Shown here: piece by piece, positions 4,073 through 24,436 of the stretch | Layout of the letters: every line of letters starts with the position of its first letter | Numbering within the stretch: the stretch's first letter is position 1 | From: a virus | Direction: 5' to 3' (one strand) | DNA length: 24,734 nucleotides | IMG/VR virus record: IMGVR_UViG_3300043399_001520 | Location: 1-24,734 of that record | Notes under the pieces: model-generated | What the model was told of the DNA's origin: nothing | The model's input: only the letters and a program-made list of their open reading frames with translations | Database searches by the model: none | Position numbers and translations under genes: made by a program

Positions 4073-4104
4073 ACGCCCCGGAGGTCGGCCGGGGCGTTTC
4101 TTTG
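4073..4104 (+). terminator. Intrinsic terminator of the left-arm run
   Basis: ACGCCCCGG (4073-4081) pairs perfectly with CCGGGGCGT (4089-4097) around a 7-nt loop and runs directly into TTCTTT. The T-rich side is on the + strand, so it ends + strand transcription 27 nt after the 101-aa gene. No T run serves the opposite direction. Confidence 0.85.
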
Positions 4105-4137
4105 AGACAACCAGCAAGGAGAGGCGGGAGGTATCAG

Positions 4138-4253: not shown

Positions 4254-5690
4254 TCACCTCGCGGCCGGTGCATACCCCTTTAATCGAGCGTAGTCCCGAA
4301 GGTGCAGCAGCAAGTCGTCCTGCATCTCGACCTTGTCTGAAATCCGCTGCCAAATGAGCTCGTGGACCGTTCCTTTGGCGCACAGTTTATGGATCCGGAC
4401 GGTCGAACCAACGCCCATGCGCCACACACGAGCGTTGAATTGCTGGTAGTACTCGCTGCTGTCCGTCGGTCCAAACCAAACGATGTCCCGGCAGCTGCCC
4501 TTCTGCATGTTCACCCCATGAGCCATCGACATGGGGTGAACAGCCAGCACGTTCGGGCGGAGCGTGTCACTGTTCCACCGTTCGACAATGTCCGCAGTTT
4601 CACGGGCCGACACCCCACCGGCAACCCACCGCATCTCGGGGAACGCGCGGCGAAGGCTCTGCAACTCGTGTGTGAAGTGGAAGGCCACCAGCAGTGGCTT
4701 GTGATTCAGCTCTTCGTGCAGATCCACCACCGCGTCTACCATCTCGCTGTGCACCTGATGGGCCTGTTTCTGCTCGTCGTAGATATGCCCGCTGGCGATC
4801 TGCCGACAACACATGTATTTTGCTGCGGCGTTACTCGCCTCGCGAGGGTCGCCACTCTGCAGCGTAACAAACATTCGTTTTTCCATATCCTCGTACGCAG
4901 CGCGTGCGCTTGGTGGCAGGTCGACGTACACCAGCTTTTCGATCTTTTGCGGCATGCTGAGATAGTCCTGTATGTCCAGCCGCAGGCACATGGGTGCTAC
5001 TTCCTGATCGAACCGCCCCTCGTATGCAGGGTGAATGGTCCATCGGTTGTGGTCGCGGTCCCCCTCCGCTGCACAGAACCTCCGGCGAAAAGTTGTCACA
5101 TCTTTTCCAAGAGGACATTGTTCCCCGTTGAGTAGCCACAGCTGAGGGAACAGGTCCGCTTTGTTGTTCGGTGTCGGTGTGCCGTTCATGATCACCTTGA
5201 ACGGGATGCTCTGTGCCAGCTTTCGCATCGCGATTGATCGCTGGGCACTCCACGTACGAAAGCTGCCGCTCTCGTCAACCACCAGCAAATCCCACGGAAG
5301 CCTTTCGCGACCAGCAACACTCTTAGCCAGCCAATCCATCGCATCCCTGTTAATTATGTGAATGTTTGCCTGCGTGGCGAGCGCTTTGCGACGGTCGAAC
5401 ACATTCCCCACAGCCACGGCGTGCGTCATATGCCGGAAGTTGCTCCAGGTTGCAACCTCGGTTGGCCAGACGTGCCTGCACACGGTTTTCGGCGCCACGA
5501 TCAGGGTGCGTGACGGGAACCCAAACTCTCGCATCTGCCGGATCCACTCCAACACGATGGCCGTCTTGCCCATGCCGGGGTCCAGGAACAGCGCACCGCC
5601 GCCACTACTGTTACCGGAAAGCAGCGTGCGATTGTGCAGGAATTTTATGGCGCTTTGTTGGTACCGGAGAGGCGTCCACTCTTTCATCAT
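4254..5690 (-). CDS. SNF2-type DEAD-like helicase/ATPase
   Basis: A 478-residue superfamily 2 ATPase of the compact phage SNF2 type. Visible motifs in order: Q-like start LRYQQSAI (8-15); Walker A DPGMGKT (37-43); Ia TLIVAPKT; motif II VVDESGS (138-143, where many relatives have DEAH); motif III NGTPTPN (169-175); then the second RecA domain with a motif V-like HGVNMQKG and motif VI QQFNARVWRMG. It should couple ATP hydrolysis to movement on DNA during phage replication or repair. The start is placed at the ATG at 5690 (GGAG at 5696-5699, 5 nt spacing); the ATG at 5687 is equally possible, while the upstream GTG overlaps the SD. It overlaps the VRR-NUC gene by about 80 nt. It is last in the replication cassette, as in related phages. 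Confidence 0.93.
   Translation of the reverse strand: MMKEWTPLRYQQSAIKFLHNRTLLSGNSSGGGALFLDPGMGKTAIVLEWIRQMREFGFPSRTLIVAPKTVCRHVWPTEVATWSNFRHMTHAVAVGNVFDRRKALATQANIHIINRDAMDWLAKSVAGRERLPWDLLVVDESGSFRTWSAQRSIAMRKLAQSIPFKVIMNGTPTPNNKADLFPQLWLLNGEQCPLGKDVTTFRRRFCAAEGDRDHNRWTIHPAYEGRFDQEVAPMCLRLDIQDYLSMPQKIEKLVYVDLPPSARAAYEDMEKRMFVTLQSGDPREASNAAAKYMCCRQIASGHIYDEQKQAHQVHSEMVDAVVDLHEELNHKPLLVAFHFTHELQSLRRAFPEMRWVAGGVSARETADIVERWNSDTLRPNVLAVHPMSMAHGVNMQKGSCRDIVWFGPTDSSEYYQQFNARVWRMGVGSTVRIHKLCAKGTVHELIWQRISDKVEMQDDLLLHLRDYARLKGYAPAAR
4508..4542. repeat. 13-bp perfect inverted repeat in helicase gene
   Basis: TGTTCACCCCATG (4508-4520) and CATGGGGTGAACA (4530-4542) form a perfect 13-bp stem around a 9-nt loop. 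The repeat encodes the motif V region (VHPMSMAHGVN). A match this long with a short loop is very unlikely by chance in this length. Confidence 0.75.
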
Positions 5691-5996: not shown

Positions 5997-8105
5997 CATC
6001 GCCTTCGTCTCACAGGCCACCTGCAGGCCTGCCGCCCAGCCTGGCGTCTCGCACATCAGCTGATCAAACCTGTCGACAGGCAGTGACGAGTCGGACACCA
6101 CCTCATCGTGGACGCTGAGGACGACAGGGTACCCCGCGTTTTCAACTCGCTGGATCGCCTGTCTCAACAGGTCACAGGCCACAGCCTGCGTGATGTTTTC
6201 CGCAATCGTGCCGCCCCATGTCGACTGGACAGACCACCTGCGAGTAACAGAGTCTTCGGCCCAGTAGTAGCACTCATGCCCCGTCCACCGCCCTCCCCTC
6301 CTCGGCACCTCTTCGACACCAGCACGTTGGTACCACAGTAGCCGACCGCTGGGCAGCTGGATGACAAGGGCTTGCCTCTGTTCGTCGTAGAAGAATACAC
6401 ACTTCCCGGCGTGTACTGCTGTCTTCTTGACCACAGCGCGAACCCATGCCGCTTCGTACACTTTCCACAGTGCTGGAATCTCTTTGTATGTCGTGCGGTA
6501 CAGGTCGACGATAGATTTGCTTCTCTCGTCTGTCAGTGCCCAGTTGTATGGCGGTAGTGCTGCTGTTGCCTGGAACTTACTCGGCTGGCCATTCCGGGCA
6601 GTGCCGCCCATCCCGTACTGGAGTGCCAGCACGGCAACTTTACCTAGTTGTCGCTCAGGGGCCGACTTCGCAATTGAGTCTTCGGCGACCCCAAAAATCC
6701 TAGCCGCAAACTGCCGGTACGGACAACGTTTCTCCATGAACGCGCGCTGCATCATCTCGCAATCCGCAAGCCAAGCGACAGCCCTTGCCTCAATAGCATT
6801 AAAGTCGCTGACGAGCAGCATGTTGCCGGGTGACGGAAGCAGCAGTGTCCGGATCGCATTGCTGATTCGCTGCAGCGGTTTTCCAGACAAACGCTCCCCC
6901 CGTCGCAGAGTCTCGTGCAGCTTCTCTGCTTCCTCCTCTTTTGGCACGTCCCTGGGCAGGTTGTGCGGCTGCCACCCTCGGCCAGTCCATCGACCTGTGC
7001 TGGCGCCGTGCCATAGCATAGAGTGCCGCAGCCTCTCATCGTCGTCCAGTAGAGAGATCATCATCGGGACCTTGGCCAAACTGGTCAGACCGGCATCTTT
7101 CTTGATCTCCAGCAGCTCTCTGACGTGCGTCATGTGCGCAGGTACACCTGATTCGCTCAGCAGCTGCTGCACACTGGCTTTGTCGAGACTGGCTGTGGAG
7201 ACCCCCTGCATGTACAGCCACTCAACCATCCGATCTCGACTGGTAACCTTAGGGACGAAGCCGTGGGGGTATGCTGGGCTTGCGGTGATCTGACTGAGTC
7301 GCACGTTAGCGGCCGCCATCTCTCGCTCAACAGTTTCGTTGAACAGCAGCAACTCTGCGATGTCCACACGCAACCCTCTTTCGTTGATCTTGAAATCCAG
7401 CTCAAAGTCGGCCTGCATGTCGGCTGGCAAAGGACCCGCTTTGAGCAGGAATTCGGTCTGCGTAGCCACGTCCTGCCTGCAGTACTCCCACACCCGGCTC
7501 AGCCGAGGATAGTCTTCCCACCACTGAAGCGGCATCGGCGTGTTCCCGTGCTCCGCGGCCCAAGCGGCCTGTGCTTTCGCACTGGGCTTCCTCGGTTGTG
7601 CGCACTGGTGCATCACGTGATTACCTGCCATGTCTTTTTCGTTTTTCAGACCAGCAGCAACCGCCAGTTTCTCCAAGCTGCGAGGCCAGTTCTGCCAGCA
7701 CGCGATTGCCATCGTGCATCGCCACAGGTGGTCTGGGATCTCAGGCCAACCCAACCGCCGCACGCAATGCCACTTCCAGACATTGCGGTCAAACACTGCG
7801 TTATGTGCGTACACAGGAAGGCCCTGCTGCAGGGCCCACACGACTGGTGGGGGACACTCGTCTCCTGGCATGAACACAGCCGAGGGTGTCTCCAGCATGC
7901 CGCCCTGTCGCGGAGGGATCGTGCCTCCGCCAGGGATGTATGTGATGGCTTCCCCAACACTACCGGGATGGTCCGTGAGCACCATCTGCAGCCCGACGCA
8001 GAGCACCCCCGTGCTCTGCGATTGTGCATACCTGCGGTATGAGCTTTCTTTCAGGGTATGTGCCGACCTAGTCTCCAAGTCGAGCATCAGAAATCCGCGG
8101 GTCAT
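5979..8105 (-). CDS. Family A DNA polymerase with 3'-5' exonuclease domain
   Basis: A 708-residue phage replicative polymerase. Exonuclease motifs: DLE (D9, E11), HNAVFD (N102, D106) and YCRQD (Y208, D212). Polymerase motifs: A SDFNAIEAR (434-441); B RQLGKVAVLALQYG (485-498); C HDE (666-668). The SDFxxIEAR form of motif A is typical of phage polymerases found with DUF2800/DUF2815. The start is the ATG at 8105, with GAGG (8112-8115) 6 nt upstream; longer in-frame versions would run through the HTH gene and lack an SD. It overlaps the HTH gene by 38 nt and the nuclease gene by 4 nt. Perfect hairpins lie at 7820-7836 and 7997-8020. All catalytic residues are present, so it should be active. Confidence 0.96.
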   Translation of the reverse strand: MTRGFLMLDLETRSAHTLKESSYRRYAQSQSTGVLCVGLQMVLTDHPGSVGEAITYIPGGGTIPPRQGGMLETPSAVFMPGDECPPPVVWALQQGLPVYAHNAVFDRNVWKWHCVRRLGWPEIPDHLWRCTMAIACWQNWPRSLEKLAVAAGLKNEKDMAGNHVMHQCAQPRKPSAKAQAAWAAEHGNTPMPLQWWEDYPRLSRVWEYCRQDVATQTEFLLKAGPLPADMQADFELDFKINERGLRVDIAELLLFNETVEREMAAANVRLSQITASPAYPHGFVPKVTSRDRMVEWLYMQGVSTASLDKASVQQLLSESGVPAHMTHVRELLEIKKDAGLTSLAKVPMMISLLDDDERLRHSMLWHGASTGRWTGRGWQPHNLPRDVPKEEEAEKLHETLRRGERLSGKPLQRISNAIRTLLLPSPGNMLLVSDFNAIEARAVAWLADCEMMQRAFMEKRCPYRQFAARIFGVAEDSIAKSAPERQLGKVAVLALQYGMGGTARNGQPSKFQATAALPPYNWALTDERSKSIVDLYRTTYKEIPALWKVYEAAWVRAVVKKTAVHAGKCVFFYDEQRQALVIQLPSGRLLWYQRAGVEEVPRRGGRWTGHECYYWAEDSVTRRWSVQSTWGGTIAENITQAVACDLLRQAIQRVENAGYPVVLSVHDEVVSDSSLPVDRFDQLMCETPGWAAGLQVACETKAMRRYGK
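7997..8020. repeat. 10-bp perfect tetraloop inverted repeat in polymerase gene
   Basis: CGCAGAGCAC (7997-8006) and GTGCTCTGCG (8011-8020) flank a 4-nt C run (G run in the mRNA). It lies 85-108 nt after the polymerase start and has no terminator T run. Confidence 0.65.
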
Positions 8106-8316
8106 GGGCTGCCTCAATTGCGCGTGCGAACAAAACATCCGTCCACGGTCGCACACCTCTCTCAAGCCGTGACAGGTACGACACTGACAGCCCAAGAGAA
8201 TCCGCCAGATGCTTCAGCCGCACACCGTTTTTCAGTCGGGCTTCTCTCACGAGCCTCCCACACGCCACGTGGTCCAGCAACTGGACCACGTGGGTTGGGG
8301 CCACCGGGCTGGACAT
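8068..8316 (-). CDS. Xre/Cro-type helix-turn-helix protein
   Basis: An 82-residue protein with an HTH_3-type domain: LVREARLKNGVRLKHLADSLGLSVSYLSRLERGVRPWTDVLFARAIEA spans residues 22-69 (broken here only by description), with the recognition helix in SVSYLSRLERG. Such proteins bind operators as repressors or Cro-like regulators. The ATG at 8316 overlaps the TGA of the DUF2815 gene by one base, and no strong SD is visible, so translation is probably by re-initiation. It sits between the ssDNA-binding protein and polymerase genes, where this cassette often carries a small HTH gene. Codons 8-18 contain a 13-bp perfect inverted repeat that could be its own operator. Confidence 0.85.
   Translation of the reverse strand: MSSPVAPTHVVQLLDHVACGRLVREARLKNGVRLKHLADSLGLSVSYLSRLERGVRPWTDVLFARAIEAAHDPRISDARLGD
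8265..8293. repeat. 13-bp perfect inverted repeat in HTH gene; possible operator
   Basis: CCACGTGGTCCAG (8265-8277) and its exact complement CTGGACCACGTGG (8281-8293) are separated by only 3 nt. Dyad symmetry over 29 bp close to an HTH gene start suits a dimeric regulator binding its own gene. The same sequence would give a very stable hairpin in the mRNA 23 nt after the start codon. There is no T run. Confidence 0.7.
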
Positions 8317-9329
8317 CAGAACACCGGCATGGACTGGCCGGCAAACACCTGTGCGTCGAGGTATTGTTCCGGCGTAGCCAAGTTAAACTCTGACGCTGGG
8401 ATGTTTTGGAAATCCTCAACACCCGTGCCACTGCCACCCAGCCGAACGCTGTCTGCAACCTTCAACACACCGTTCAGGGCCCAGTAGATGCCTTTGCCGC
8501 CCGTTTGGTTGTCGTACGGAAGAGCTGTAACACTGACGTACACGATCGCCCCGGCGTACATGTCGTCAGCATTGGCCTCGATCCTGTTTTGCCCTACATA
8601 GCACTTCGGGCGGCTGTCGCTCTTTGTGCGGAGGAACCACCCGTCGTTGCCTGTCTCTGCAACAAACGCTCCGTTTCGCACGCTGCTGAGTGGCATTATT
8701 GGCGGGTTCTTGCCGTTGGGCCAATTGACTCGCCAAACAGCTTGTGAAACCCGGCCAATCACCTCCTGTACTTTTTGCGTGATTTCTGCATACTTCGGAT
8801 TGCTCTTGTACACATACAAATCACACGAGTACTTCGGCTTGTTCTGGGTCCCCGGTGCAGCCGCTGGCTCGTGCAAATGCGGGTAGCTGAGTACGACAGG
8901 GCCGATCAGCACTCGCAAGCCTTTGGATGGATCTTCCTGCGTCGCGACGGGTTTAACCGCTTGGACCGGCATCTGAGGACTCAGCGTTGCTGCCGGTGTC
9001 CAGATCTGGGGCTGCTGCGGAGCACCGGGTTGTGCCTGAGGCATGCCGGGGAACTGCTGCGGAGCACCAGGGAACTGCTGCGGAGCACCGGGTTGTGCCT
9101 GAGGCATGCCGGGGAACTGCTGCGGAGCACCAGGGAACTGCTGCGGAGCACCAGGGAACTGCTGCGGAGCACCGGGTTGTGCCTGAGGCATGCCGGGGAA
9201 CTGCTGCGGAGCACCAGGGAACTGCTGCGGAGCACCGGGTTGTGCCTGAGGCATGCCGGGGAACTGCTGCGGAGCACCAGGGAACTGCTGCGGAGCACCG
9301 GGCGTAGCCGGGATTTGGTACGGCTGCAT
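8316..9329 (-). CDS. DUF2815 protein, probable ssDNA-binding protein with Pro/Gln repeat tail
   Basis: A 337-residue protein. The C-terminal two thirds (about 130-320) match the DUF2815 pattern: VLSYPHLHEP, KYSCDLYVYKSN, NGKNPPIMPLSSV, MYAGAIVYVSVTALPYDN, KGIYWALNGVLKV and GVEDFQNI. DUF2815 proteins are phage proteins encoded beside DUF2800 and family A polymerases and are thought to coat ssDNA in replication or recombination; that role is inferred. Residues 10-106 are a low-complexity run of PGAPQQF and PGMPQAQ heptads, not expected in DUF2815 and probably disordered. The start ATG at 9329 overlaps the TAA of the DUF2800 gene by one base. The tail could mediate self-association or bind partner enzymes, as SSB tails do, but here it is N-terminal. 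Confidence 0.88.
   Translation of the reverse strand: MQPYQIPATPGAPQQFPGAPQQFPGMPQAQPGAPQQFPGAPQQFPGMPQAQPGAPQQFPGAPQQFPGAPQQFPGMPQAQPGAPQQFPGAPQQFPGMPQAQPGAPQQPQIWTPAATLSPQMPVQAVKPVATQEDPSKGLRVLIGPVVLSYPHLHEPAAAPGTQNKPKYSCDLYVYKSNPKYAEITQKVQEVIGRVSQAVWRVNWPNGKNPPIMPLSSVRNGAFVAETGNDGWFLRTKSDSRPKCYVGQNRIEANADDMYAGAIVYVSVTALPYDNQTGGKGIYWALNGVLKVADSVRLGGSGTGVEDFQNIPASEFNLATPEQYLDAQVFAGQSMPVF
9012..9302. repeat. Tandem 21-nt/63-nt coding repeat
   Basis: Thirteen 21-nt heptad units plus a partial one, arranged as a 63-nt super-unit (two PGAPQQF then one PGMPQAQ) present four times. One copy carries an extra PGAPQQF unit. Copies are nearly identical in DNA, pointing to recent expansion by slippage or recombination. 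Copy number may vary between isolates, and the region is prone to assembly error. Confidence 0.95.
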
Positions 9330-10708
9330 TACTCATCCTCTCCTTCGTTATCAATCAACCACGTCTGTGCCGCCTCGGGCAACACCTGCTGCCCTTTGGC
9401 ATCCTCTCGAACCAGCGCCAACCCTCGTATAGGTTGGTGCACGATGGCGTCTTGGACCAAGCTCCAATCTTGACGCCGCGACTTGATTATTTTTTCCGCC
9501 TGAGCGGGAGAGACCGGCTCTCGCCGCTCATAATCACCATCCCCGTACAGCACAGTGAGCACCGCCACGACGTTTGCACCTGCGGCCCACGCACGGTGCC
9601 CGTACTTGGCGATCAGTTTGCGACCGGGGATGTTCACACCGGCCACCGCTCTCTCGTACAAAGCCCGCTCGACACGGGACAGAAAGTCTCGCATCGCATC
9701 TGCTCTTTCCGAAAGCCACAGCAGCTGCTCAACGGTGAGATCTCTTGTCAGTGCGTACGAAGGCTGACCTGAAGCGTCATCGATGACACCGACACTGATC
9801 TCCTGCAGCACAGCATCCTGTTGCATCGGGCAAGTCATTGCACGAGGACAGTACTGGCAGTGCGGACCGGCTATCAGTAGCGATTCATCACCGGTTTGCA
9901 GTGGCAGCCGTAACCGGTGCCACCGTTCCAGCACAACATTCGCGGTGTGACCGATCTTCTCATATGCAAGGTGTATGTCTGTCTGACCGGGTACAAACTT
10001 CGACACCGAAGGGTTGCACCGAGGCTGCACCACGACCTGCACCACACGTCGAACACGAGTGTCCGGCGCCTGTTGGGCCATCCACTCCATCACGAGAAGG
10101 GCATACGCTGTTGTCTGCAGCCCCGAAGCGTGGACGGGTTTTCGCCCAAACTTCAAATCGAGTATGCACAACACTCCCGTTTCCGGGCAATACAGCACGC
10201 AGTCTGCGGTGCCCCCGAACAAGGGGGTGCCTTGCTCGATCTCCGTATCGCCTGAAGGTGCACTCCAGAGGCCGCTTGTTCGTTCAGCCTCGGTGCTGAC
10301 TCGCGGATCTGTCATGCTGTGTTCAGCAATCAGCTCACAAACGGTACTAAGAAACAGCTGGACAGCGTCGACCATCTCAACGGTCACCGGGACAGGGGCT
10401 GTTGCTTCGGGATCAAACTCCGTCCACAACCTATCGACGAAGGTGGACGCCCATGAAATTGCAGTCTCAACGGCAATTCCCAGCGTCGTCTTACCGCCCC
10501 ACGCATACCAAACGGGTATTGATTCTTTCTCCAAAGTAGGGTGAGACACACACACTCGTTTCAGTGTGAGGCAAAGAAGTGCGTGGCAACAAGACCCCTC
10601 TTCGCTGGCTGCGGAAGGTCGGGAAACAACAACCTGCCCGAACAAACTACCCGGGCAGGTTGTCCACCGATCAGCAGATGAGGGGCCAAGCAGGTAGTGC
10701 TTAGCCAA
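9329..10708 (-). CDS. DUF2800 family PD-(D/E)XK nuclease (RecB/Cas4-like)
   Basis: A 459-residue protein. Family signs: N-terminal HYLLGPSSADRWTTCPGS; SEEGSCCHALL (E37, H42); nuclease core GTADCVLY (D169) and ILDLKFGRKPV (D184, K186) with QTTAYAL (Q198); and a C-terminal CQYCPRAMTC cluster. The early Cys of TTCP plus these three Cys match the four-Cys iron-sulfur site of RecB/Cas4-like nucleases. It probably resects DNA ends in phage recombination with the DUF2815 protein. The TTG at 10708 is preferred because the G-rich stretch 10713-10718 acts as SD 5-6 nt upstream and the protein then begins like its family. An ATG at 10726 would add six residues. It overlaps the upstream gene by 8 nt. Confidence 0.88.
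   Translation of the reverse strand: MAKHYLLGPSSADRWTTCPGSLFGQVVVSRPSAASEEGSCCHALLCLTLKRVCVSHPTLEKESIPVWYAWGGKTTLGIAVETAISWASTFVDRLWTEFDPEATAPVPVTVEMVDAVQLFLSTVCELIAEHSMTDPRVSTEAERTSGLWSAPSGDTEIEQGTPLFGGTADCVLYCPETGVLCILDLKFGRKPVHASGLQTTAYALLVMEWMAQQAPDTRVRRVVQVVVQPRCNPSVSKFVPGQTDIHLAYEKIGHTANVVLERWHRLRLPLQTGDESLLIAGPHCQYCPRAMTCPMQQDAVLQEISVGVIDDASGQPSYALTRDLTVEQLLWLSERADAMRDFLSRVERALYERAVAGVNIPGRKLIAKYGHRAWAAGANVVAVLTVLYGDGDYERREPVSPAQAEKIIKSRRQDWSLVQDAIVHQPIRGLALVREDAKGQQVLPEAAQTWLIDNEGEDE
9501..9530. repeat. 12-bp hairpin with one bulge in DUF2800 gene
   Basis: TGAGCGGGAGAG (9501-9512) pairs with CTCTC-G-CCGCTCA (9518-9530) with one bulged G and a 5-nt loop. It lies in coding sequence for SPAQAE. 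Confidence 0.5.
10629..10663. repeat. 12-bp perfect inverted repeat early in DUF2800 gene
   Basis: ACAACCTGCCCG (10629-10640) and CGGGCAGGTTGT (10652-10663) flank an 11-nt loop. In the minus-strand mRNA it begins 45 nt after the TTG start, and the loop flanks could add G-U pairs. It is too close to the start to be a normal operon terminator. Confidence 0.7.
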
Positions 10709-11465
10709 GGCGCACCCCCCGTGCATGCAGCGAAGCCTGCAGTGCGTTGTAGAGGACGGGTGCGTTGGCGTCAGTGAGCTGCGACAAGTTGCTCATGCCT
10801 GCCATGGCAATTGCATCCTGCACAGACTCTCGAGCGCCTGTCGCCGGACTGTTCACCAGTTGGATCACAAACCCGCGCACGTTCGCGGCGTTAAACTGCG
10901 GAGCTGGCTGTTGGACAGGCACCGCCTGTGGCACGGGTTGTGGAACCGGAAAGGCCGCGGGTTGTGGCGCAAACGCAGCCGTAGGTGCACCCGCAGTGAA
11001 CGGGTTAAATTGCTGATTTTTGGTCAGATCCACGGCCACCGAGGTGGAGCTGACCGGATCGGGTGCTGGGGGAAACGTCCGCACGCCGGGCTGCCCGCCG
11101 GCTGGTGGCGTGTAGAGCGGCTGCTGCACAGGCAACACGGGGCCGGGGATGGCGTTTGGAAAACCCGGAGCCTGGAAAGCAGCCTGGGGTGGCTCCGCGG
11201 TGATTGGCGGAGCAGGGGCAGCCTCTCCTTTTTTTCGCCGCCCTCGTTTTGCAGGCGAGGGGTCGGCACCTGCTGGAGGCGTGGCAGGGGCCTCTGAATT
11301 CGTCACATCCCACTGCGACGTGGGTGGCAGCTGGCTGTGTTCGGCTTCCGGCAGGCCCAAGGCCGCCACACCGAAATTCACCCTCAGACCAGCCTTAAAC
11401 AGAGCATGAAACGCCGGATCAACATTCGCCAGATCATGATCATCAAACTGAATTGTAATCAACAT
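10701..11465 (-). CDS. Unknown protein with basic segment and Pro/Gln-rich linker
   Basis: A 254-residue protein from the ATG at 11465, with AAAGGAG 6 nt upstream; in-frame codons further upstream lack an SD. Three parts are visible: a short N-terminal domain (MLITIQFDDHDLANVDPAFHAL); a basic patch KRGRRKKG (73-80) like an AT-hook or DNA-backbone contact; a long Pro/Ala/Gln-rich linker (about 82-200); and a C-terminal helical segment (NVRGFVIQLVNSPATGARES to the end). It heads the DUF2800-DUF2815-polymerase cassette, so a role in DNA transactions is plausible but unproven. Its start codon and SD lie in a strong hairpin (11462-11504). The low-complexity linker resembles in composition the tail of the DUF2815 protein. 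Confidence 0.75.
   Translation of the reverse strand: MLITIQFDDHDLANVDPAFHALFKAGLRVNFGVAALGLPEAEHSQLPPTSQWDVTNSEAPATPPAGADPSPAKRGRRKKGEAAPAPPITAEPPQAAFQAPGFPNAIPGPVLPVQQPLYTPPAGGQPGVRTFPPAPDPVSSTSVAVDLTKNQQFNPFTAGAPTAAFAPQPAAFPVPQPVPQAVPVQQPAPQFNAANVRGFVIQLVNSPATGARESVQDAIAMAGMSNLSQLTDANAPVLYNALQASLHARGVRLG
11022..11055. repeat. 11-bp hairpin with one mismatch in the 254-aa gene
   Basis: GGTCAG-A-TCCAC (11022-11033) pairs with GTGGA-G-CTGACC (11044-11055): six and five pairs around a single mismatch, with a 10-nt loop. Confidence 0.45.
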
Positions 11466-11504
11466 TGCCCACTCCTTTCTGGTAAAAAAGGGCGTGGGCA
11501 ATGT
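11462..11504 (-). promoter_or_regulatory. Start-codon and SD-sequestering hairpin
   Basis: In minus-strand RNA ACATTGCCCAC (11504-11494) is perfectly complementary over 11 bp to GTGGGCAATGT (11472-11462), which contains the ATG (11465-11463). Inside it CCTTT (11491-11487) pairs with AAAGG (11478-11474) of the SD AAAGGAG. SD, spacer and start codon are thus all on the 3' side of a 16-bp stem. This is the layout of a translational switch or an RNA-binding-protein site for the 254-aa gene. Confidence 0.65.
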
Positions 11505-11528
11505 AGCCGACAGCATCAACCCGAACAA
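11500..11528 (-). promoter_or_regulatory. Possible weak promoter before the replication cassette
   Basis: Minus-strand TTGTTC (11528-11523) and TACATT (11505-11500) are 17 nt apart, matching sigma70-type boxes at three and four of six positions. A transcript from here would begin near 11493 and lack the 5' arm of the masking hairpin, while read-through RNA would carry it. A match this weak may be chance. Confidence 0.25.
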
Positions 11529-11533
11529 ATCAC

Positions 11534-11554
11534 ATTTGCCAGATTTTGGCAAAT
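11534..11554. repeat. 8-bp inverted repeat between genes
   Basis: ATTTGCCA (11534-11541) and TGGCAAAT (11547-11554) flank a 5-nt spacer in the 91-bp gap between the 288-aa and 254-aa genes. There is no clear T run in the minus direction. It may be an operator or a weak terminator. Confidence 0.45.
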
Positions 11555-11556
11555 TC

Positions 11557-12423
11557 TCAGAGTGGGCGAACTGCTGACGGGATGGCTTTGTTGAGTGCGT
11601 CGTTCACGGGTACACCCCGTGCCGTCTGCGCCGCCCCATCAGCTGCAGTGACGGGAAACCTCGCGAGTAGTGGGTACAGCACCGGCGCTTCAAGCCCCTC
11701 ATACAGCCTCTGCAAATTGGTTTCTGTGAAAAGGCCGTTGCTGCCCAGAGGGACAATCGACGCCTCAGCTCCTGGGTTCGATGGCGGAGCGTATGTCTGA
11801 CGCACTTTTGCGAGGTCGAAGAGAAACTCTTCTTTGGTCAGCTCTGCTGCGGACAGCCCAAGCCACCGCGTACCGATGAGCGTGACGCACTCGCCCAGGA
11901 AGCTCCAAACGAGCTGTGCAGCTTCTACAGTCATGGTCAGAGGCAGGTTGTTGTCTGAAGACTGGTAGATGTTCGCAAGAGCGAACATCACCAGCTCGTT
12001 CAGGTCTTTCAGATCCTGATTTCGTACGATGTTGTTGAAGTATGGGACGGGCGATATCACCCACGCGGCCGCGGCCGGCGAGACATGTCCACCCTCCAGC
12101 CGTGGCTGATTCGCAGGCACAGCCCGCTGCTTAAACGCGGTCTTGGCTTGGTTCAGCATGTCACACAGTCGCAACACAGTGTTAATTGACGGGTGGTGTT
12201 CCCGCCTCGCATCCACGTGCGTCATGACGTGAAACTGACATTGATTGATTCTTCGCGCAATGCTGAGCCACGCCTTGTTCTGCGTGTACAGTCGATCGGC
12301 AAAGTTCGGCACCCCGAACCCGAGTCGACTCCACGGTTCGACGTTAAACAGTAAAACGGAATCGCTGCCGAGAGTCTGGTCTTTGTCCCAGGTAGGGGTT
12401 GGGTCGACTGATGAAGCGGACAC
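11557..12423 (-). CDS. Hypothetical protein
   Basis: A 288-residue protein from the GTG at 12423 with only a weak purine stretch (AGAAAGAGA) upstream. It starts 12 nt after the stop of the thioredoxin-like gene. The N-terminus is polar (SASSVDPTPTWDKDQTLGSDS), followed by mixed and helical segments (YTQNKAWLSIARRINQCQFHVMTH, DLKDLNELVMFALANIYQS). There is no signal peptide, convincing membrane segment or recognised catalytic motif. It lies between export/envelope-type genes and replication genes. A 14-bp hairpin with one bulge (11962-11994) lies within it. Confidence 0.75.
   Translation of the reverse strand: MSASSVDPTPTWDKDQTLGSDSVLLFNVEPWSRLGFGVPNFADRLYTQNKAWLSIARRINQCQFHVMTHVDARREHHPSINTVLRLCDMLNQAKTAFKQRAVPANQPRLEGGHVSPAAAAWVISPVPYFNNIVRNQDLKDLNELVMFALANIYQSSDNNLPLTMTVEAAQLVWSFLGECVTLIGTRWLGLSAAELTKEEFLFDLAKVRQTYAPPSNPGAEASIVPLGSNGLFTETNLQRLYEGLEAPVLYPLLARFPVTAADGAAQTARGVPVNDALNKAIPSAVRPL
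11962..11994. repeat. 14-bp tetraloop hairpin with one bulge
   Basis: CTGGT-A-GATGTTCGC (11962-11976) pairs with GCGAACATCACCAG (11981-11994) around a 4-nt loop with a single bulged A. The inner 9 bp are perfect. No T run follows on either strand. Confidence 0.65.
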
Positions 12424-14833: not shown

Positions 14834-17800
14834 CTAACGCTGCATTAACTCACGCAGCCTGTCTATCCGAGTCGGGACAGCCCTCTGGGCCTTCTCAGCT
14901 TTTTCGGTCTCTCGCTGTTGCTTTCTGAGAGCAGCCAAGACCTTGCCAAGCTGTTCCAGTTTGGCGGCATCCTCAGCAGCCCCTGACTCCAACAGCCTCT
15001 TCTGCAGCTCGGCAGTCCCGCTGACCGTCGTAAGCGGACGAGCTCCATACTCGATCTGCAAAGCGTTGACTCTGTCTCTTATGTCTCGAATGATCTGCTC
15101 CTCGCTCACGGCTTCGACGCGTGTGCCGAGCAACAGCCGCATCACTTTTTCCGTCGCCGAGCTACGGGCCGAGGGGTTGCTGATAACCCTGGCAGTCGAC
15201 GCTGCTCGACTGAGCGGGGAAGCCGCGACCAAGCTCTCCAGCAACGGACCGCCGACCGGCTGTGGACGGCCAGATGGCGGCACGTCAACGACACCCGCAT
15301 TCGCCAGGATGCGGCCGAGTGTTGGGTCGAGATCGTCAAGCCGGCGGCCGCCCATCGGGCCTTGTGAGTACAGAGAGGTGTTCGTTGCGTATTCGATCCA
15401 CCACTTCATCGCTGGGTGCGCAGAGGAAGCAACCTGCTGCATCAACCCCCGAACGTCACCCTGAATCGCATTCCCCGCATACTTGACTGCATCTTCGTGC
15501 ATCAGCCCAAGGCTTGTGAGGTACCGCAGTGAACCGTCATTCGCGTTACCCAGTGGGATGGCAACCGTGTCTTGTAGCTGAAAAGGGACATACCCATCTT
15601 CGTCACCTTGACCCAGTCTCGCTGCTCTCACCGACATGCCGAGAGGGCCGCCGGGGTTCTGCACAAACTCCCGCAAAAACATCGGGATCGACTGGCGCAT
15701 GAACGAGTAGAAGGGGATCAGTGTCTTCAAGTACTGCGTCTCGAACCGTGAAAAATTTCGCGGGTCTGAGTTAGTCAAGATCCTGTCTGTCTCAGCAAAA
15801 GCCTCAGACAACGTCCGACCTTTAGCGAGCTGCTCCAGTACAACCGACATACGCACAGTGGTGTCAATGTTCGCTCGGAAGGAATTGACGACCTCGCTGA
15901 ACACGTTGCCCTCGCTGCGTTGCACGAGACGGTTTTCGGAGGAACCGAAGTCCCGAGGTGGTCCTGGGAACCTTTGGCCGGTTGATGCAGCTTCCGCAGC
16001 AACGCTTGCAGTAGGTCGAGCTGTTTCACGTGTCCAGGATCCAGCAACATTCAGTGGGCTGAACGCGAAATTGCCGCTGAATGGCGTCAGCGCCCCCGGC
16101 TTACTGAGCAGGTCTCTCATCATGGCTGCTGCATTTACCGCCCCGGTAGCAACCGCTGTGGTGACCGGTGCGGATGTGGCTGCCGCACCTCCCTGTGGTA
16201 TCCCTGAAAAGGGAATCCCGGACAGCACTGCCTCGGCCTGCCCGCTGTTCACGCGAGAGGCTTGGTCCGCAACTACGATGTTGGCGTGACGGGAGGGTGC
16301 CCGGTGGTGGGCCGCCCACAAAGCCTGCAGAGCACGGCCACGCTGCCTGTTAATCTCCGCGGCAGAAGCACCAGCAACACCTGTGGTCCGCAGCAACGCA
16401 TCGATCTCCGGGGGCACTGGGATGCCGAGAGCGTCAAAGTCTATCGGAGCGCCACGGGCAAAACTCAGTGCCGGTCGGCCGAACCGGCCAACGGCCGTCA
16501 GGGGGTTCACGTCGCCCATCACTGTGGCGTTGAACAGGCTGCTGACACCGTCACGGATAGCCGTGCTCAGAGACCACAACAGCCCGCTTTTCGTCGCCAG
16601 AGTCAGGTTGCTGATGAGCTTTAGCGGATCCGTCAACTCCGGCAGTGTCGGAGCGACAGCCAGCTCGCCGTAAGTCTTCAGCTGAGCTGCCACCTCGGCG
16701 GGTACGCCGAGGCCAAACACCTCTTGTCGCATCAGCTCGTCCGGAGACAGCGTGTTGACTCCTGTACCGACCTGAGCGGTGGGCCTCCGCAGCAAACCCT
16801 GACGCTCCCAGCGGGCTGCGATCTGGTCAGCAAAAGTGTTTCGCACGAGACGAGTACCAAACACGCTGTGCTCTGATCGAGGGTCTAATAGATCCCCGAG
16901 TGGGATGTTCGCTCGCGAGGTGTCGGAGGGTAGATAGCCACTCACAACAGCACCCGCTGGGCTTGCCGCCACTTGCCGGCGTAAGTTTGTCACAGCCTCG
17001 ATGAATCGATCTGCATACGAGTACAGCATTCTGTTCTTAGTGGTGTAGTCTGCCATGTCTACCAACGGGTTGTTGGTGAACATCTGCGTGAATCGCCGGT
17101 CACTGTGTTCTACCAGCTCGTCGGCGAGTGCTTCATACCGGTCACCCTGTGCAACGGTAACATCAGCCTCCAGCTCCGGTAGCGGGTTTTGTGTGAGCGG
17201 CGACACACCCGCCCGGTATTGATTCTCAAACTGCCGCATCGTGTCCAGCATCTGTCGCTGAGCGTCGTCGAAGCCAAGGGCCTGAAGGCTCTGGTCGTCC
17301 ATGCGCAACAGAGCGTGGACTGCTGAGTTGCCAAGATCAATACCCTGTGGCACTGCGTTTGCCTGTGCAGAGGTGGCAACGGCTCTGTTGTAAAGCGTCA
17401 GCAGCCTGTCATACGTGCGGTGCCACTCAGGGACTGACCGTGAGATGCCGCCACGATTTGCGTCTCGCAGAGACCCGTCCGCTGCAACAGCGAGAACACC
17501 AGAGCCGTCGTTGGCAGGCATTGCCATTGGCTGCGTGATAACCTCTCCGTAGTTGCGAGCGATGGCTTGGCGAATGTCTGCTGCTGCGGCCTCATGCTGC
17601 AGTAGCGGCATCTGTGCCTGCCCAGCCGCCCACCGAGCAGGGTCGACATCGAGCATGGCGGCGTACCGACCAAACCTCGCGTCCAGTTGCGATGTGATCG
17701 TTGGCTGCACAATTACAGGGACAACAGCAGCGCCCCTGGTGGGTTGGCGTAGGCCGAGGTATAAACGGTTTCCCGCCTGAATCGCTGCTTCAATTCTGTC

Positions 17801-20353
17801 GACTGCTTGTGTGTTCAGCAGAGGAGCGAGTGTCGGGTCTCGCTGCCAGGCTGGCCAGTTCTGTGCCGTCAGCTCCAGGTACGTCGCGTTGCCTTGCATC
17901 AGACCTGCAGCGATTCGTGCCGAGAACTGCGGGACGAAGGTGTTTGGTATCGTCGGGTGCGGTTGCACTCGAATACGCACGCCACTGTCATCGAGCAGGT
18001 TGGTGAACGTCCTCCAATTTCCTGTGCCTGCGTGGATGCCGGGGCCGGTCCCATTTGCTGCGGCCTGTACCGTCTGTGCGCGCACTCGGGCAAGAGCTGT
18101 CTGGGCATCTGCCAACGGAATGTACTGCGGGTACCGCATGTCAGCAGCGGCGCCCGGTCTGTTGGCGTGCAGCAAACGACTCCACTCCTCACGACCACCA
18201 GGCACCTGTCGAACCGGTTGAAACCCGTTGGCTCGCCAAAAATCAGCCTGCTGCGGGTTGATGAAAGCTCGCAAAGTATTCGCACCGAAGGCCTCTGCAA
18301 TCGGGCGCATCTCTGAGATCAGGTTTTCAACAACGCGGCGGCGGCGCGCCTGTACTCGCGTAACGGCCTCATCGATCGCAGGCCCGTTGATCTGCCGAAA
18401 GGTTTCGTATTGCGAAAACGCCGGGTCAGTGTCCATGGGCAACCGCCCCTCGACAACGTCTTCGGCAAAGGCTTCGACCGGGGTCCGATACCTGGGGTCC
18501 GTGTTTGGAAGTGGGTTGAGAAACCGACTGACAGGAGACACCTCGGACAGCACAGTGTCTTCGAGAAGCACACTGGCTTCTGAAAAAGGCCCCACGTCTA
18601 CCTGCAGATTCGGCATGCCGGGTATGCTGGGAACAGTGCCACCAGCCCCCGGGTCTGGGAATGAGACTCGAAGGTTGGCCGCAGCGTTGACCGGGGCTCC
18701 CGGGGTCACAAAGTCACGCAGCAACAGCTGCCCTGGCTGTGTCGGGTCGTCAACCAACCGCATCGGCATTTCCTGATGCGTAGAGGACAGTGAAGTCACC
18801 ATCTGCCGCCACAGATCCTCCGGCTCCAGACCAATAGCCTGTGCGATCGGTGCGACGTGGCGGACGCCTACGAAGTTCGGCAGGTAGGGCATCTGCAACG
18901 GCTCGCCAGGCACGGTCAGCAGCACAGGCGACACGTGCTGCTGAATGCGGTTGTACACCTCATCCCACATCTGATCGCCGTATAGACGGTTGATACCGGC
19001 ATCGCCTTCACGAAAGCCACCCAGCATCTGCTCTCGCTGACCTGGGTTGTACGTGGCTTCAACGACTCCGCGATATGTGCGCTTCCAGGCATTCCAAGAC
19101 CGCTGCAGCACAGCCTCTGCATACCGCGAGGTGTCGCCCTTTTGCCGCGGGAAAAACGCCTGAAACTGATCAAACCATTCTGGGATGTTGAAGCCCATCT
19201 GGGTCAACTCGGCTCGGCTCTGATCCATGGCCGTGCGAAACCGGTCGAGAGATGGTCTGAGTTCTTCTGGCACCGACACTTCGGTTTGCCGAAATACCGG
19301 AACGATATCCGACTCCAATCGCCAGTCCGCATCACCCACCAAGCGGATCCGCAGACCGTCCTGATATGTGTCCGCCACTTCGACTTCGCGCAGCCGTCCG
19401 GCAGGATCGCCTTCGAGACGCACCAAGTCTCCTTTGGTGAACGCCGGCAGGGTGGGTCGAACCGCGGGGTCGACGGTCGGATCAAGCTCGCCTAGATACC
19501 GCCGGATTGCGTCATTGTTGGCCGCTACTCGCAGCGGAGACCCCTCGGCAAACCAGTTCGCTGGGTCAGCCCTGTCTAACGTACCATCTAAATCAAGACG
19601 GAACCCAAGATCTCGCGACTCCAGCAACAGCATCGCGGCCTGGCTCTGCACGCGGTCCATCGCCGTACGCCAGTCCTGTCGTGCAGCCTGGACGATGGGT
19701 TGAACATCCGGATGTGTCACACCCCAGCCAAACCGATCAAACAACGCGGTCGCTTGCCTCTGAACCCCACCGAAAGCCCTGCGTATGGTCTGCATCCCGC
19801 CTTGTGAGAGAGGATCGAATGCTGCTTGCAGACCAGAACCGATTGCCCGCATGACGGGATGGGCTCTGCTGGGTGATTCCGCTGCTGCACGAGCGACGTC
19901 AAGCTGTTGCGTGCGAGACGCATTGGCTGCGTTTCGCACCGGCCGTGCGAAACGCGTCCCTCGGGCCAGCCAACCAGCGAGAGGGCCGAAAGGATCCAGA
20001 GCGAGTTCAGCGCCGAAGCCAGCCAGATCAGCGACCCCCTCCATGGGGTCGCTGAGCCAGCCAGACATACCTGTTTCTTTGTTCGCAGAAGTCAAACCCC
20101 ATCGTGTCAGCACATCTCGGCCGGAAAGCCGGTTTTCTGCAGAGAGAGGACTGGCCAGTTGGTCAAACCAATTTGACACGGGCTCCCCACCCGCGATGTC
20201 TCGAACGATCGAGCCGGGTAGGTCGAGAAAATTGCCGAGCGAGGCCACAGCCCCCAAGCCCGCCTCTCCGACTTGGCTGAGTAGAGAGGTAGGGCTTTGG
20301 CTTGTCGCGACCGGTGATGTTGTTTTCCGGAGAAGCTCTTCAAGCGTTGCCAC
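14834..20353 (-). CDS. Very large (1839 aa) probable virion-associated polyprotein-like protein
   Basis: A single uninterrupted frame of 1839 codons from the GTG at 20353, with GAGG 6 nt upstream and overlapping the TGA context of the 980-aa gene. The N-terminal 60 residues are mildly hydrophobic. Much of the rest is Ala/Pro/Gln/Arg-rich with regularly spaced helices. Near residues 1550-1580 is SRFETQYLKTLIPFYSFMRQ, a segment of a type I know from very large phage proteins of podovirus-like genomes (internal virion or large polyvalent proteins). The last 70 residues form a charged coiled coil (AAKLEQLGKVLAALRKQQRE). No catalytic motif was identified. It is probably injected with, or packed in, the virion. 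Perfect hairpins occur at 16693-16712, 18916-18944, 19929-19955 and 20028-20055. Confidence 0.8.
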   Translation of the reverse strand: MATLEELLRKTTSPVATSQSPTSLLSQVGEAGLGAVASLGNFLDLPGSIVRDIAGGEPVSNWFDQLASPLSAENRLSGRDVLTRWGLTSANKETGMSGWLSDPMEGVADLAGFGAELALDPFGPLAGWLARGTRFARPVRNAANASRTQQLDVARAAAESPSRAHPVMRAIGSGLQAAFDPLSQGGMQTIRRAFGGVQRQATALFDRFGWGVTHPDVQPIVQAARQDWRTAMDRVQSQAAMLLLESRDLGFRLDLDGTLDRADPANWFAEGSPLRVAANNDAIRRYLGELDPTVDPAVRPTLPAFTKGDLVRLEGDPAGRLREVEVADTYQDGLRIRLVGDADWRLESDIVPVFRQTEVSVPEELRPSLDRFRTAMDQSRAELTQMGFNIPEWFDQFQAFFPRQKGDTSRYAEAVLQRSWNAWKRTYRGVVEATYNPGQREQMLGGFREGDAGINRLYGDQMWDEVYNRIQQHVSPVLLTVPGEPLQMPYLPNFVGVRHVAPIAQAIGLEPEDLWRQMVTSLSSTHQEMPMRLVDDPTQPGQLLLRDFVTPGAPVNAAANLRVSFPDPGAGGTVPSIPGMPNLQVDVGPFSEASVLLEDTVLSEVSPVSRFLNPLPNTDPRYRTPVEAFAEDVVEGRLPMDTDPAFSQYETFRQINGPAIDEAVTRVQARRRRVVENLISEMRPIAEAFGANTLRAFINPQQADFWRANGFQPVRQVPGGREEWSRLLHANRPGAAADMRYPQYIPLADAQTALARVRAQTVQAAANGTGPGIHAGTGNWRTFTNLLDDSGVRIRVQPHPTIPNTFVPQFSARIAAGLMQGNATYLELTAQNWPAWQRDPTLAPLLNTQAVDRIEAAIQAGNRLYLGLRQPTRGAAVVPVIVQPTITSQLDARFGRYAAMLDVDPARWAAGQAQMPLLQHEAAAADIRQAIARNYGEVITQPMAMPANDGSGVLAVAADGSLRDANRGGISRSVPEWHRTYDRLLTLYNRAVATSAQANAVPQGIDLGNSAVHALLRMDDQSLQALGFDDAQRQMLDTMRQFENQYRAGVSPLTQNPLPELEADVTVAQGDRYEALADELVEHSDRRFTQMFTNNPLVDMADYTTKNRMLYSYADRFIEAVTNLRRQVAASPAGAVVSGYLPSDTSRANIPLGDLLDPRSEHSVFGTRLVRNTFADQIAARWERQGLLRRPTAQVGTGVNTLSPDELMRQEVFGLGVPAEVAAQLKTYGELAVAPTLPELTDPLKLISNLTLATKSGLLWSLSTAIRDGVSSLFNATVMGDVNPLTAVGRFGRPALSFARGAPIDFDALGIPVPPEIDALLRTTGVAGASAAEINRQRGRALQALWAAHHRAPSRHANIVVADQASRVNSGQAEAVLSGIPFSGIPQGGAAATSAPVTTAVATGAVNAAAMMRDLLSKPGALTPFSGNFAFSPLNVAGSWTRETARPTASVAAEAASTGQRFPGPPRDFGSSENRLVQRSEGNVFSEVVNSFRANIDTTVRMSVVLEQLAKGRTLSEAFAETDRILTNSDPRNFSRFETQYLKTLIPFYSFMRQSIPMFLREFVQNPGGPLGMSVRAARLGQGDEDGYVPFQLQDTVAIPLGNANDGSLRYLTSLGLMHEDAVKYAGNAIQGDVRGLMQQVASSAHPAMKWWIEYATNTSLYSQGPMGGRRLDDLDPTLGRILANAGVVDVPPSGRPQPVGGPLLESLVAASPLSRAASTARVISNPSARSSATEKVMRLLLGTRVEAVSEEQIIRDIRDRVNALQIEYGARPLTTVSGTAELQKRLLESGAAEDAAKLEQLGKVLAALRKQQRETEKAEKAQRAVPTRIDRLRELMQR
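16693..16712. repeat. 8-bp GC-rich tetraloop hairpin
   Basis: CCTCGGCG and CGCCGAGG flank GGTA inside the 1839-aa gene. It is perfect and very GC-rich, with no T run. Confidence 0.45.
18916..18944. repeat. 10-bp perfect inverted repeat
   Basis: TCAGCAGCAC (18916-18925) and GTGCTGCTGA (18935-18944) flank a 9-nt loop inside the 1839-aa gene. Confidence 0.6.
19273..19300 (-). repeat. 12-bp hairpin with three G-U pairs, coding-sense only
   Basis: On the minus strand CCGGTATTTCGG pairs with CCGAAGTGTCGG around CAAA: nine Watson-Crick and three G-U or U-G pairs. On the + strand those three positions are A-C mismatches, so the structure exists only in the mRNA. Confidence 0.55.
19929..19955. repeat. 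11-bp perfect inverted repeat
   Basis: GCGTTTCGCAC (19929-19939) and GTGCGAAACGC (19945-19955) flank a 5-nt loop inside the 1839-aa gene, encoding the TRFARPVRNA region. Confidence 0.65.
20028..20055 (-). repeat. 11-bp perfect hairpin with AUGGAG hexaloop
   Basis: TCAGCGACCCC and GGGGTCGCTGA flank six bases that read AUGGAG in the mRNA. An ANGGAN hexaloop on a stable stem is the classic CsrA/RsmE recognition element, and the same window encodes a CsrA-like protein. It lies about 300 nt inside the 1839-aa gene, not at an SD. Confidence 0.5.
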
Positions 20354-23304: not shown

Positions 23305-23353
23305 GGGTCGCCTCCCGAGAGGATCGTACCAGCCCCGGACCGTGCCGTCTATC

Positions 23354-24436
23354 TCAGACGACCTGCCAGACTCTTGCCTCACCTGGGCAGACCACGTACA
23401 CCCCGGTAAAACCAGCAAACGACCGAGTGTGGTCCCGGCCCAGTGCGACTGCGATTCTGTGCGACTGTTCCACACAGCTCTCCACAAAGATGGCGGGGAG
23501 ACCGGTGTTTATCTGGTTCGCAGCCCAAGCGGCAAACATCTCCGCCTTCCACTCGGGGGTGTACCTCGCCCGTCTCTCCTGCAGAGTTGGCTCCCCCCTC
23601 ATCTGCAAAACGTCAACATCAATTCTCTTCTCCCGCAGCCACTGACGTGTCTCTCCTGCGTACTTGCGGAGGCGAGCAGTCACCACAAGCGGGATGCGAC
23701 CGCGTCTGGGGGCGTATCGCAAAGGGGCGGTGCGCATCCAGGAAACGTACTGAGGTCCATCGTCATCGACAGCCGCGGGGCAGTCCTCGCACAACACTCC
23801 GTCAAAGTCGCACGCCATGCCTGGCAGAAAGACACTGTTGAACAGATTCCACTCCAAAAAGTGTGGGTATGGCAACGTCTCCGCCCACAGGTCAGGCATC
23901 CGCTTGCTGTCAGGCGCACAATACACCGTCGCCGTCGTCACCTGCGAGGCCGTCCCACGCACAATAGGAATCGTGTCCTGCAAACTGCGGCCTGTCATCG
24001 AAGTGTCGTCAACAACAAGCACATGCGCCGGACGATCTGTACCCTGCAGTCGAAACCCATGCCCCGCCGGAACAACATCCTTCTCGCTTTGCCGCACCAC
24101 CAGCAGAGGTAGGTGCATCGTCATGGCAAGAATGGATGCCGATGCCAGACCGCTGCGAGACACCCCCGCAATGGCGTCCACGTCTGCCGGGATTCGCGGC
24201 AAGAGCTTCAGCGTGTCAACAGCTAACTGCTGCGTCGTGACAAACCGCACCGGAGACTGCGACTCTACGATTCGTGGAGCCAACTCTGCCAGTGCTGAAA
24301 GTCTAAACGCTGCTGTGCTGTACACCCGGCGGCGGCCGAAGGAGTCACGGCTGCCCAACAGCACCTGAGGAAACCGACTTGCCACAGCAGTGGCACTGCT
24401 CTCAGGAAACACTCCGAGAAAGACTCGATCACCCAT
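23354..24436 (-). CDS. Phosphoribosyltransferase-HAD phosphatase fusion
   Basis: A 360-residue protein from the ATG at 24436, with GGGAG 6 nt upstream. Residues about 60-180 are a type I phosphoribosyltransferase: SRSGLASASILA and the PRPP loop VVDDTSMTG (141-149). Residues about 205-345 are a HAD-type domain: DFDGVLC (D210, D212 as nucleophile and acid/base), VVTAR (T253), the EWKAEM Lys (K297) and a final FVESCVEQS segment. PRTases join a base to PRPP or split it off; HAD enzymes usually remove phosphate. One chain carrying both suggests base salvage or nucleotide remodelling, perhaps for phage DNA synthesis or a modified base. The substrate cannot be told from sequence. It overlaps the upstream gene by 8 nt. 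Confidence 0.85.
   Translation of the reverse strand: MGDRVFLGVFPESSATAVASRFPQVLLGSRDSFGRRRVYSTAAFRLSALAELAPRIVESQSPVRFVTTQQLAVDTLKLLPRIPADVDAIAGVSRSGLASASILAMTMHLPLLVVRQSEKDVVPAGHGFRLQGTDRPAHVLVVDDTSMTGRSLQDTIPIVRGTASQVTTATVYCAPDSKRMPDLWAETLPYPHFLEWNLFNSVFLPGMACDFDGVLCEDCPAAVDDDGPQYVSWMRTAPLRYAPRRGRIPLVVTARLRKYAGETRQWLREKRIDVDVLQMRGEPTLQERRARYTPEWKAEMFAAWAANQINTGLPAIFVESCVEQSHRIAVALGRDHTRSFAGFTGVYVVCPGEARVWQVV

Follow-up and report, generated by a model that had tools for sequence, protein, structure and literature searches.

The window analysed in this study was an entire IMG/VR virus record, 24,734 bases in length. On its minus strand, a series of genes sharing one orientation extends from about 24.4 kb down to 4.25 kb; below 11.5 kb the series is packed and comprises, in order, the gene at its head (hereafter the head gene), a DUF2800/Cas4-like exonuclease, an Enc34-type ssDNA-binding protein (SSB), a small HTH_3 protein, a family A DNA polymerase (PolA), a VRR-NUC-like nuclease and a SNF2 helicase. 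The head gene (10701..11465, minus strand) encodes a protein of 254 aa without known family or found homologue, and its predicted structure, which was of low confidence (pLDDT 55.6, with a helical C-terminus), was not used as evidence. Its original designation as the head of a replication cassette is fair by position, the gene itself having no detectable family. Upstream, in the same orientation, lies an orphan gene of 288 aa, also without known family (11557..12423, minus strand). The stop codon of this upstream gene is separated from the ATG of the head gene (11463..11465) by 91 nt, the larger of two sizeable gaps in the tightly packed minus-strand series. A terminator scan revealed no strong terminator between the upstream genes and the head gene; the sole candidate was a weak terminator-like palindrome. 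Downstream, the DUF2800 gene (9329..10726, minus strand) overlaps the end of the head gene by 26 nt. Its start is structured and has a weak Shine-Dalgarno (SD) sequence (-2.5), and its opening cost was the second-highest in the window. This overlap, together with the weak SD and the structured start, suggests that translation of DUF2800 is probably coupled to that of the head gene. The SSB gene has its own ribosome-binding site (RBS), which is strong and open; at its N-terminus (8980-9329 of the window) the SSB contains tandem PGAPQQF/PGMPQAQ units followed by the Enc34-type domain. Near the point where the two gene series converge, the plus strand carries at 4073-4110 (CGCCCCGG...CCGGGGCG) a strong GC hairpin and, after it, TTTCTTT, which together probably terminate the plus-strand genes.

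The 91-nt gap, within a series that is continuous with the co-oriented upstream genes, contains a hairpin at 11462-11504 on the minus strand. The original prediction had placed there an 11-bp perfect stem containing the start codon, and both the coordinates and the stem proved exact: the 5' arm of the outer stem (ACATTGCCCAC; 11494..11504) is complementary at 11 of 11 positions to the 3' arm (GTGGGCAATGT; 11462..11472), the two being separated by 21 nt. The 3' arm holds the ATG together with the final base of the SD sequence AAGGAG (11472..11477), which lies 6 nt upstream of the ATG and forms an anti-SD duplex of about -8.2 kcal/mol. An inner 5-bp stem containing the SD had also been described. 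Five Watson-Crick pairs (CCUUU/AAAGG) were indeed present, and upon folding the inner stem reached seven pairs, including one G-U, between CCUUUUU (11485..11491) and AGAAAGG (11474..11480). The SD, however, was found to lie mostly rather than wholly within this stem, as its last base belongs to the outer stem and the mid-SD base A11473 is bulged, being the sole unpaired base on the 3' side of the hairpin. The 43-nt element folded at -24.7 kcal/mol, compared with -7.9 +/- 2.2 kcal/mol for shuffled sequences, giving a z-score of -7.5 for the element alone and of -3.5 in context. When folded in contexts of 221-601 nt, the pair probability of the outer stem averaged about 0.99 (0.986), and all SD and ATG bases other than the bulged A11473 were more than 99% paired.

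Several other structural readings of the element were considered and rejected. The hairpin is too stable to be an RNA thermometer, as the fold, at -24.7 kcal/mol at 37 C, was unchanged and still reached -21.2 at 45 C. It has no following U-run and was absent from the terminator scan, so that it does not qualify as an intrinsic terminator. An alternative pairing between the end of the upstream gene (GCCCACTC, 11567-11560) and the SD region (GAGTGGGC) is an exact 8-bp match, but its predicted probability was about 0. Within the window, no Rfam family (riboswitches, thermometers, leaders) was matched at the gathering score.

The effect of the hairpin on the accessibility of the start site was assessed by calculating the cost of opening positions -20 to +13. 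At the head-gene start this cost was about 25 kcal/mol, the highest among the 15 start sites scored in the window, and among 409 strong-SD ATG starts in other phage loci only 4 reached the same value. In a general gene-caller set the proportion was 34 of 1,338, but that set includes false starts, and the 409-start subset is the better yardstick. These data, obtained from the sequence and its folding, strongly support the conclusion that the SD and start codon of the head gene are masked by the hairpin. Given that translation initiation depends on RBS accessibility, RNA containing both arms should, according to this model, be translated poorly. Gene callers would treat this start as an ordinary strong RBS, and even if translation does not depend on where the RNA begins, the locus illustrates clearly how strongly a start can be masked.

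The likelihood of such a stem arising by chance was examined in two ways. When the ATG side was kept fixed and the 60 nt upstream were shuffled, an 11-bp stem over the ATG was obtained once in 20,000 shuffles. In real sequence, the ATG was covered by a perfect stem of 11 or more bp in 3 of 2,944 open frames having both ATG and SD (in the window and other phage loci, the head gene included), a rate that, scaled to the gene count of the window, amounts to about 1%. The latter is the fairer figure, because phage DNA contains more inverted repeats than shuffled sequence: perfect inverted repeats of at least 11 bp (loop 3-40) numbered six in the window, compared with about 2.4 per 24.7 kb in other phage loci and about 0.2 in shuffles. 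It is conceivable, though we regard it as unlikely, that the hairpin has no dedicated function: it would then be a perfect inverted repeat like the others in the window, placed over a start codon by coincidence and lowering translation slightly if at all. The excess of such repeats, five of the six lying within genes, is consistent with this reading, as is the weakness of the associated promoter. Against it stand the exact coverage of the ATG and SD, the presence of an extra inner stem and the low chance, about 1%, calculated above for the whole window. Because of that figure in real phage sequence, the element has probably been selected, albeit the case is not overwhelming. The five further perfect inverted repeats have arms of 11-13 bp (4508-4542, 8265-8293, 10629-10663, 19929-19955 and 20028-20055), and two of them sit no more than 100 nt after the starts of the DUF2800 and HTH genes. 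Similar segments of 13-17 nt at 11418-11434, 11458-11471 and 11529-11544 form weak direct repeats.

Relatives of the locus were sought by several approaches. Neither protein scans of IMG/VR and GTDB genomes nor tblastn against 50,697 phage records yielded a homologue of the head gene, a result that is not proof of absence, as the searches may leave out close relatives of the record. Single-protein IMG/VR scans with the DUF2800, PolA and 1839-aa proteins recovered no relatives, and alignment of DUF2800 against GTDB genomes found nothing. Alignment-based scans (with PolA, DUF2800 and a 248-aa plus-strand protein) did recover distant relatives of 22-48% identity among the matches listed; also among the matches listed, PolA in the distant cassettes was up to 35% identical and DUF2800 22-34%, and no head-gene homologue was seen in these loci. 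No comparable hairpin covered a cassette gene start in the distant DUF2800/SSB/PolA cassettes checked. A pattern scan returned 27 contigs matching both arms, all unrelated; in nearly all of them the arms lay within TTGCCCACA/TGTGGGCAA-type repeat units, and none resembled the leader. Such repeat units recur in many IMG/VR contigs and are unrelated to the hairpin. The window also encodes two very large proteins, of 1839 aa (14834-20353) and about 1041 aa (20362-23487). The former had 0 matches in the 50,697 phage records, the latter belongs to no PHROG or Pfam family, and homologues of neither were present in the fetched loci. The phage lineage looks unsampled.

We propose, with confidence that stands about midway between doubt and conviction, that the hairpin is a cis-acting leader element that blocks translation and thereby insulates the first gene of the operon from read-through RNA, an effect that coupling would probably extend to the next gene. 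In any RNA transcribed into the operon from farther upstream, the 5' arm (11504-11494) would fold onto the RBS once the latter had been made, and the head gene would be poorly translated. We infer that such read-through RNA exists and that translation of the head gene from it is decreased in vivo. DUF2800 would probably be kept low as well, because its gene overlaps the end of the head gene and has a weak SD and a structured start. Efficient translation would be expected only from RNA lacking the 5' arm, which could begin inside or after the arm or be cleaved there. The predicted effect is that the first replication gene is insulated from read-through RNA of the long upstream operon. Direct gating by the hairpin would extend to at most the first two genes of the operon, because DUF2800 looks coupled to the head gene, whereas the SSB gene has a strong, open RBS of its own. 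Several findings count against the proposal: perfect inverted repeats are fairly frequent in phage DNA, the distant cassettes checked carried no equivalent hairpin, the searches recovered no relative in which compensatory changes could be sought, the promoter scans gave no convincing site between the arms, and truncated RNAs are predicted to keep moderate structure.

A more specific version of this proposal, put forward in the original prediction, is that the origin of the transcript decides translation: a promoter at 11500-11528 would start RNA inside the 5' arm, toward its inner end, and this short RNA would be translated whereas read-through RNA would not. The RNA side of this model is in keeping with our calculations. 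RNAs starting at 11496-11486 had a predicted opening cost (-20 to +13) of about 10-15 kcal/mol, compared with about 24-28 kcal/mol for longer RNAs, and were thus some 10-15 kcal/mol easier to open; truncation at the 5' arm removed about half of the opening cost and left moderate structure. The claim that RNA without the 5' arm could not form the full hairpin therefore agrees with the predicted energetics, but the promoter that would supply such RNA did not rise above background. The candidate (TTGTTC-17-TACATT; 11500..11528, minus strand) is present as a weak match (7/12) and is suitably placed, its expected start at about 11495-11491 lying at the inner boundary of the 5' arm or slightly past it. 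However, it fell below the threshold of the promoter scan and ranked only 56 on the minus strand with a sigma70 matrix, and no convincing promoter was found between the hairpin arms by the promoter scan and this matrix. Moreover, a better-scoring site (TTGCCA-17-TTTGTT; 11524..11552, minus-strand rank 9), the best sigma70-like match upstream of the head-gene start, would begin RNA at about 11517, upstream of the hairpin and thus including all of it. These scores refer to a sigma70 consensus and matrix that may differ from those of the host. The better-scoring site is overlapped by an 8-bp perfect palindrome (ATTTGCCA-N5-TGGCAAAT; 11534..11554, minus strand), the weak terminator-like candidate mentioned above; it is also operator-like, possibly serving the phage HTH_3 protein (8068-8316). 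Taken together, it is possible, on the basis of these models, that transcript origin decides translation, but a switch operated by the 11500-11528 promoter itself appears unlikely.

A second route by which the hairpin might be opened is translation of the leader. The frame of the head gene is open upstream over 11466..11552 (29 codons), and an in-frame start at ATG 11516, or at TTG 11552 by re-initiation, could open the hairpin, yielding an N-extended protein and exposing ATG 11465. We consider this doubtful. The frame is open from 11552 into the head gene, the TTG lies 4 nt past the stop codon of the upstream gene, and the codon score obtained for the leader (0.11) matches the median of the genes. 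Nevertheless, the leader contains no usable SD, the SD energies being +1.3 at 11552 and -1.1 at 11516 as against -8.2 at 11465; about 20% of shuffles produced an open frame as long; the codon score was higher in another frame of this segment; and GC was low at the first codon positions of the leader, unlike in genes.

Relief by cleavage was also considered. RNase III processing has precedents in phages lambda and T7, and a double-strand-specific nuclease of this type could cut the near-continuous 18-pair helix, remove the 5' arm and free the RBS. The length of the helix, its small internal loop and its position between co-oriented genes fit such a site, but an inverted-repeat search of the window found no similar hairpin at other gene junctions, and we regard processing as improbable. 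We hold to be equally improbable the broader idea of a temporal translational gate on the whole replication operon, in which late read-through RNA would yield neither the head protein nor, by coupling, the DUF2800 exonuclease, and RNA that begins within the 5' arm would still be translated. If true, this would be the logic of T4 gene e turned to shut replication genes off rather than to hold late genes back. Finally, a DNA-level element (an operator for a dimeric protein, or an origin) rather than an RNA structure is very improbable: the second palindrome adjoins the hairpin and the phage encodes an HTH_3 protein, but the arms are 32 bp apart centre to centre, which is unusual for a single operator, no marked GC-skew turn occurs at the site, and neither palindrome has a further copy in the window, a finding on which a phage-specific repeated promoter or operator was likewise rejected.

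The proposed insulating hairpin was then compared with known systems. In phage T4, RBS-sequestering hairpins of e, soc, 49 and I-TevI repress RNA from upstream promoters; this repression is about 100-fold for gene e. In all of these genes, transcripts made from a promoter within or beyond the 5' arm are translated (PMC3014915, PMC2988022). The hairpin described here resembles these in that the start codon and SD are paired with the upstream leader, such that RNA entering from upstream would carry both arms and RNA without the 5' arm would be free. The stable leader stem is evident in the 11-bp outer and 7-pair inner stems, the folding energy of -24.7 kcal/mol and pair probabilities near 1. The candidate for a promoter yielding RNA without the 5' arm is the weak 7/12 match, which does not stand out from background; its placement would correspond to that of the gene e and I-TevI promoters, which are situated within the 5' arm, although the better-scoring site starts upstream of the hairpin. 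Longer transcripts may run in from upstream, where the genes are co-oriented and only a weak terminator-like palindrome intervenes. Unlike the weak, putative promoter here, the late promoter that T4 has in the 5' arm has been mapped, as have the RNA ends, and the repression has been measured (PMC3014915, PMC2988022). Moreover, the T4 hairpins mask late genes in early RNA, whereas the gene here belongs to a replication operon behind a long upstream operon.

In B. subtilis, RNA that enters sigG from the upstream operon has been proposed to be kept from translation by a large hairpin, which transcripts made from the sigG promoter itself are unable to form (PMC5942855). The likeness lies in the proposed action against upstream read-through RNA; sigG, however, is a cellular gene with a known promoter of its own and a longer stem (20+ pairs), whereas the promoter here is a candidate. 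The T4 gene 43 and gene 32 translational operators, which are bound by their gene products, are likewise leader RNA structures at the start of replication genes; the gene 43 hairpin is upstream of the start (PMC3014915), whereas the present one covers the RBS. The hairpin is thus probably a new member of the known RBS-sequestering leader design. If translation does depend on RNA origin, the design of T4 gene e and sigG would be extended to a replication operon, in a phage that is unrelated and uncultured, and the locus would offer a simple case, testable with reporters, of the means by which phages prevent misexpression of early genes from read-through RNA.
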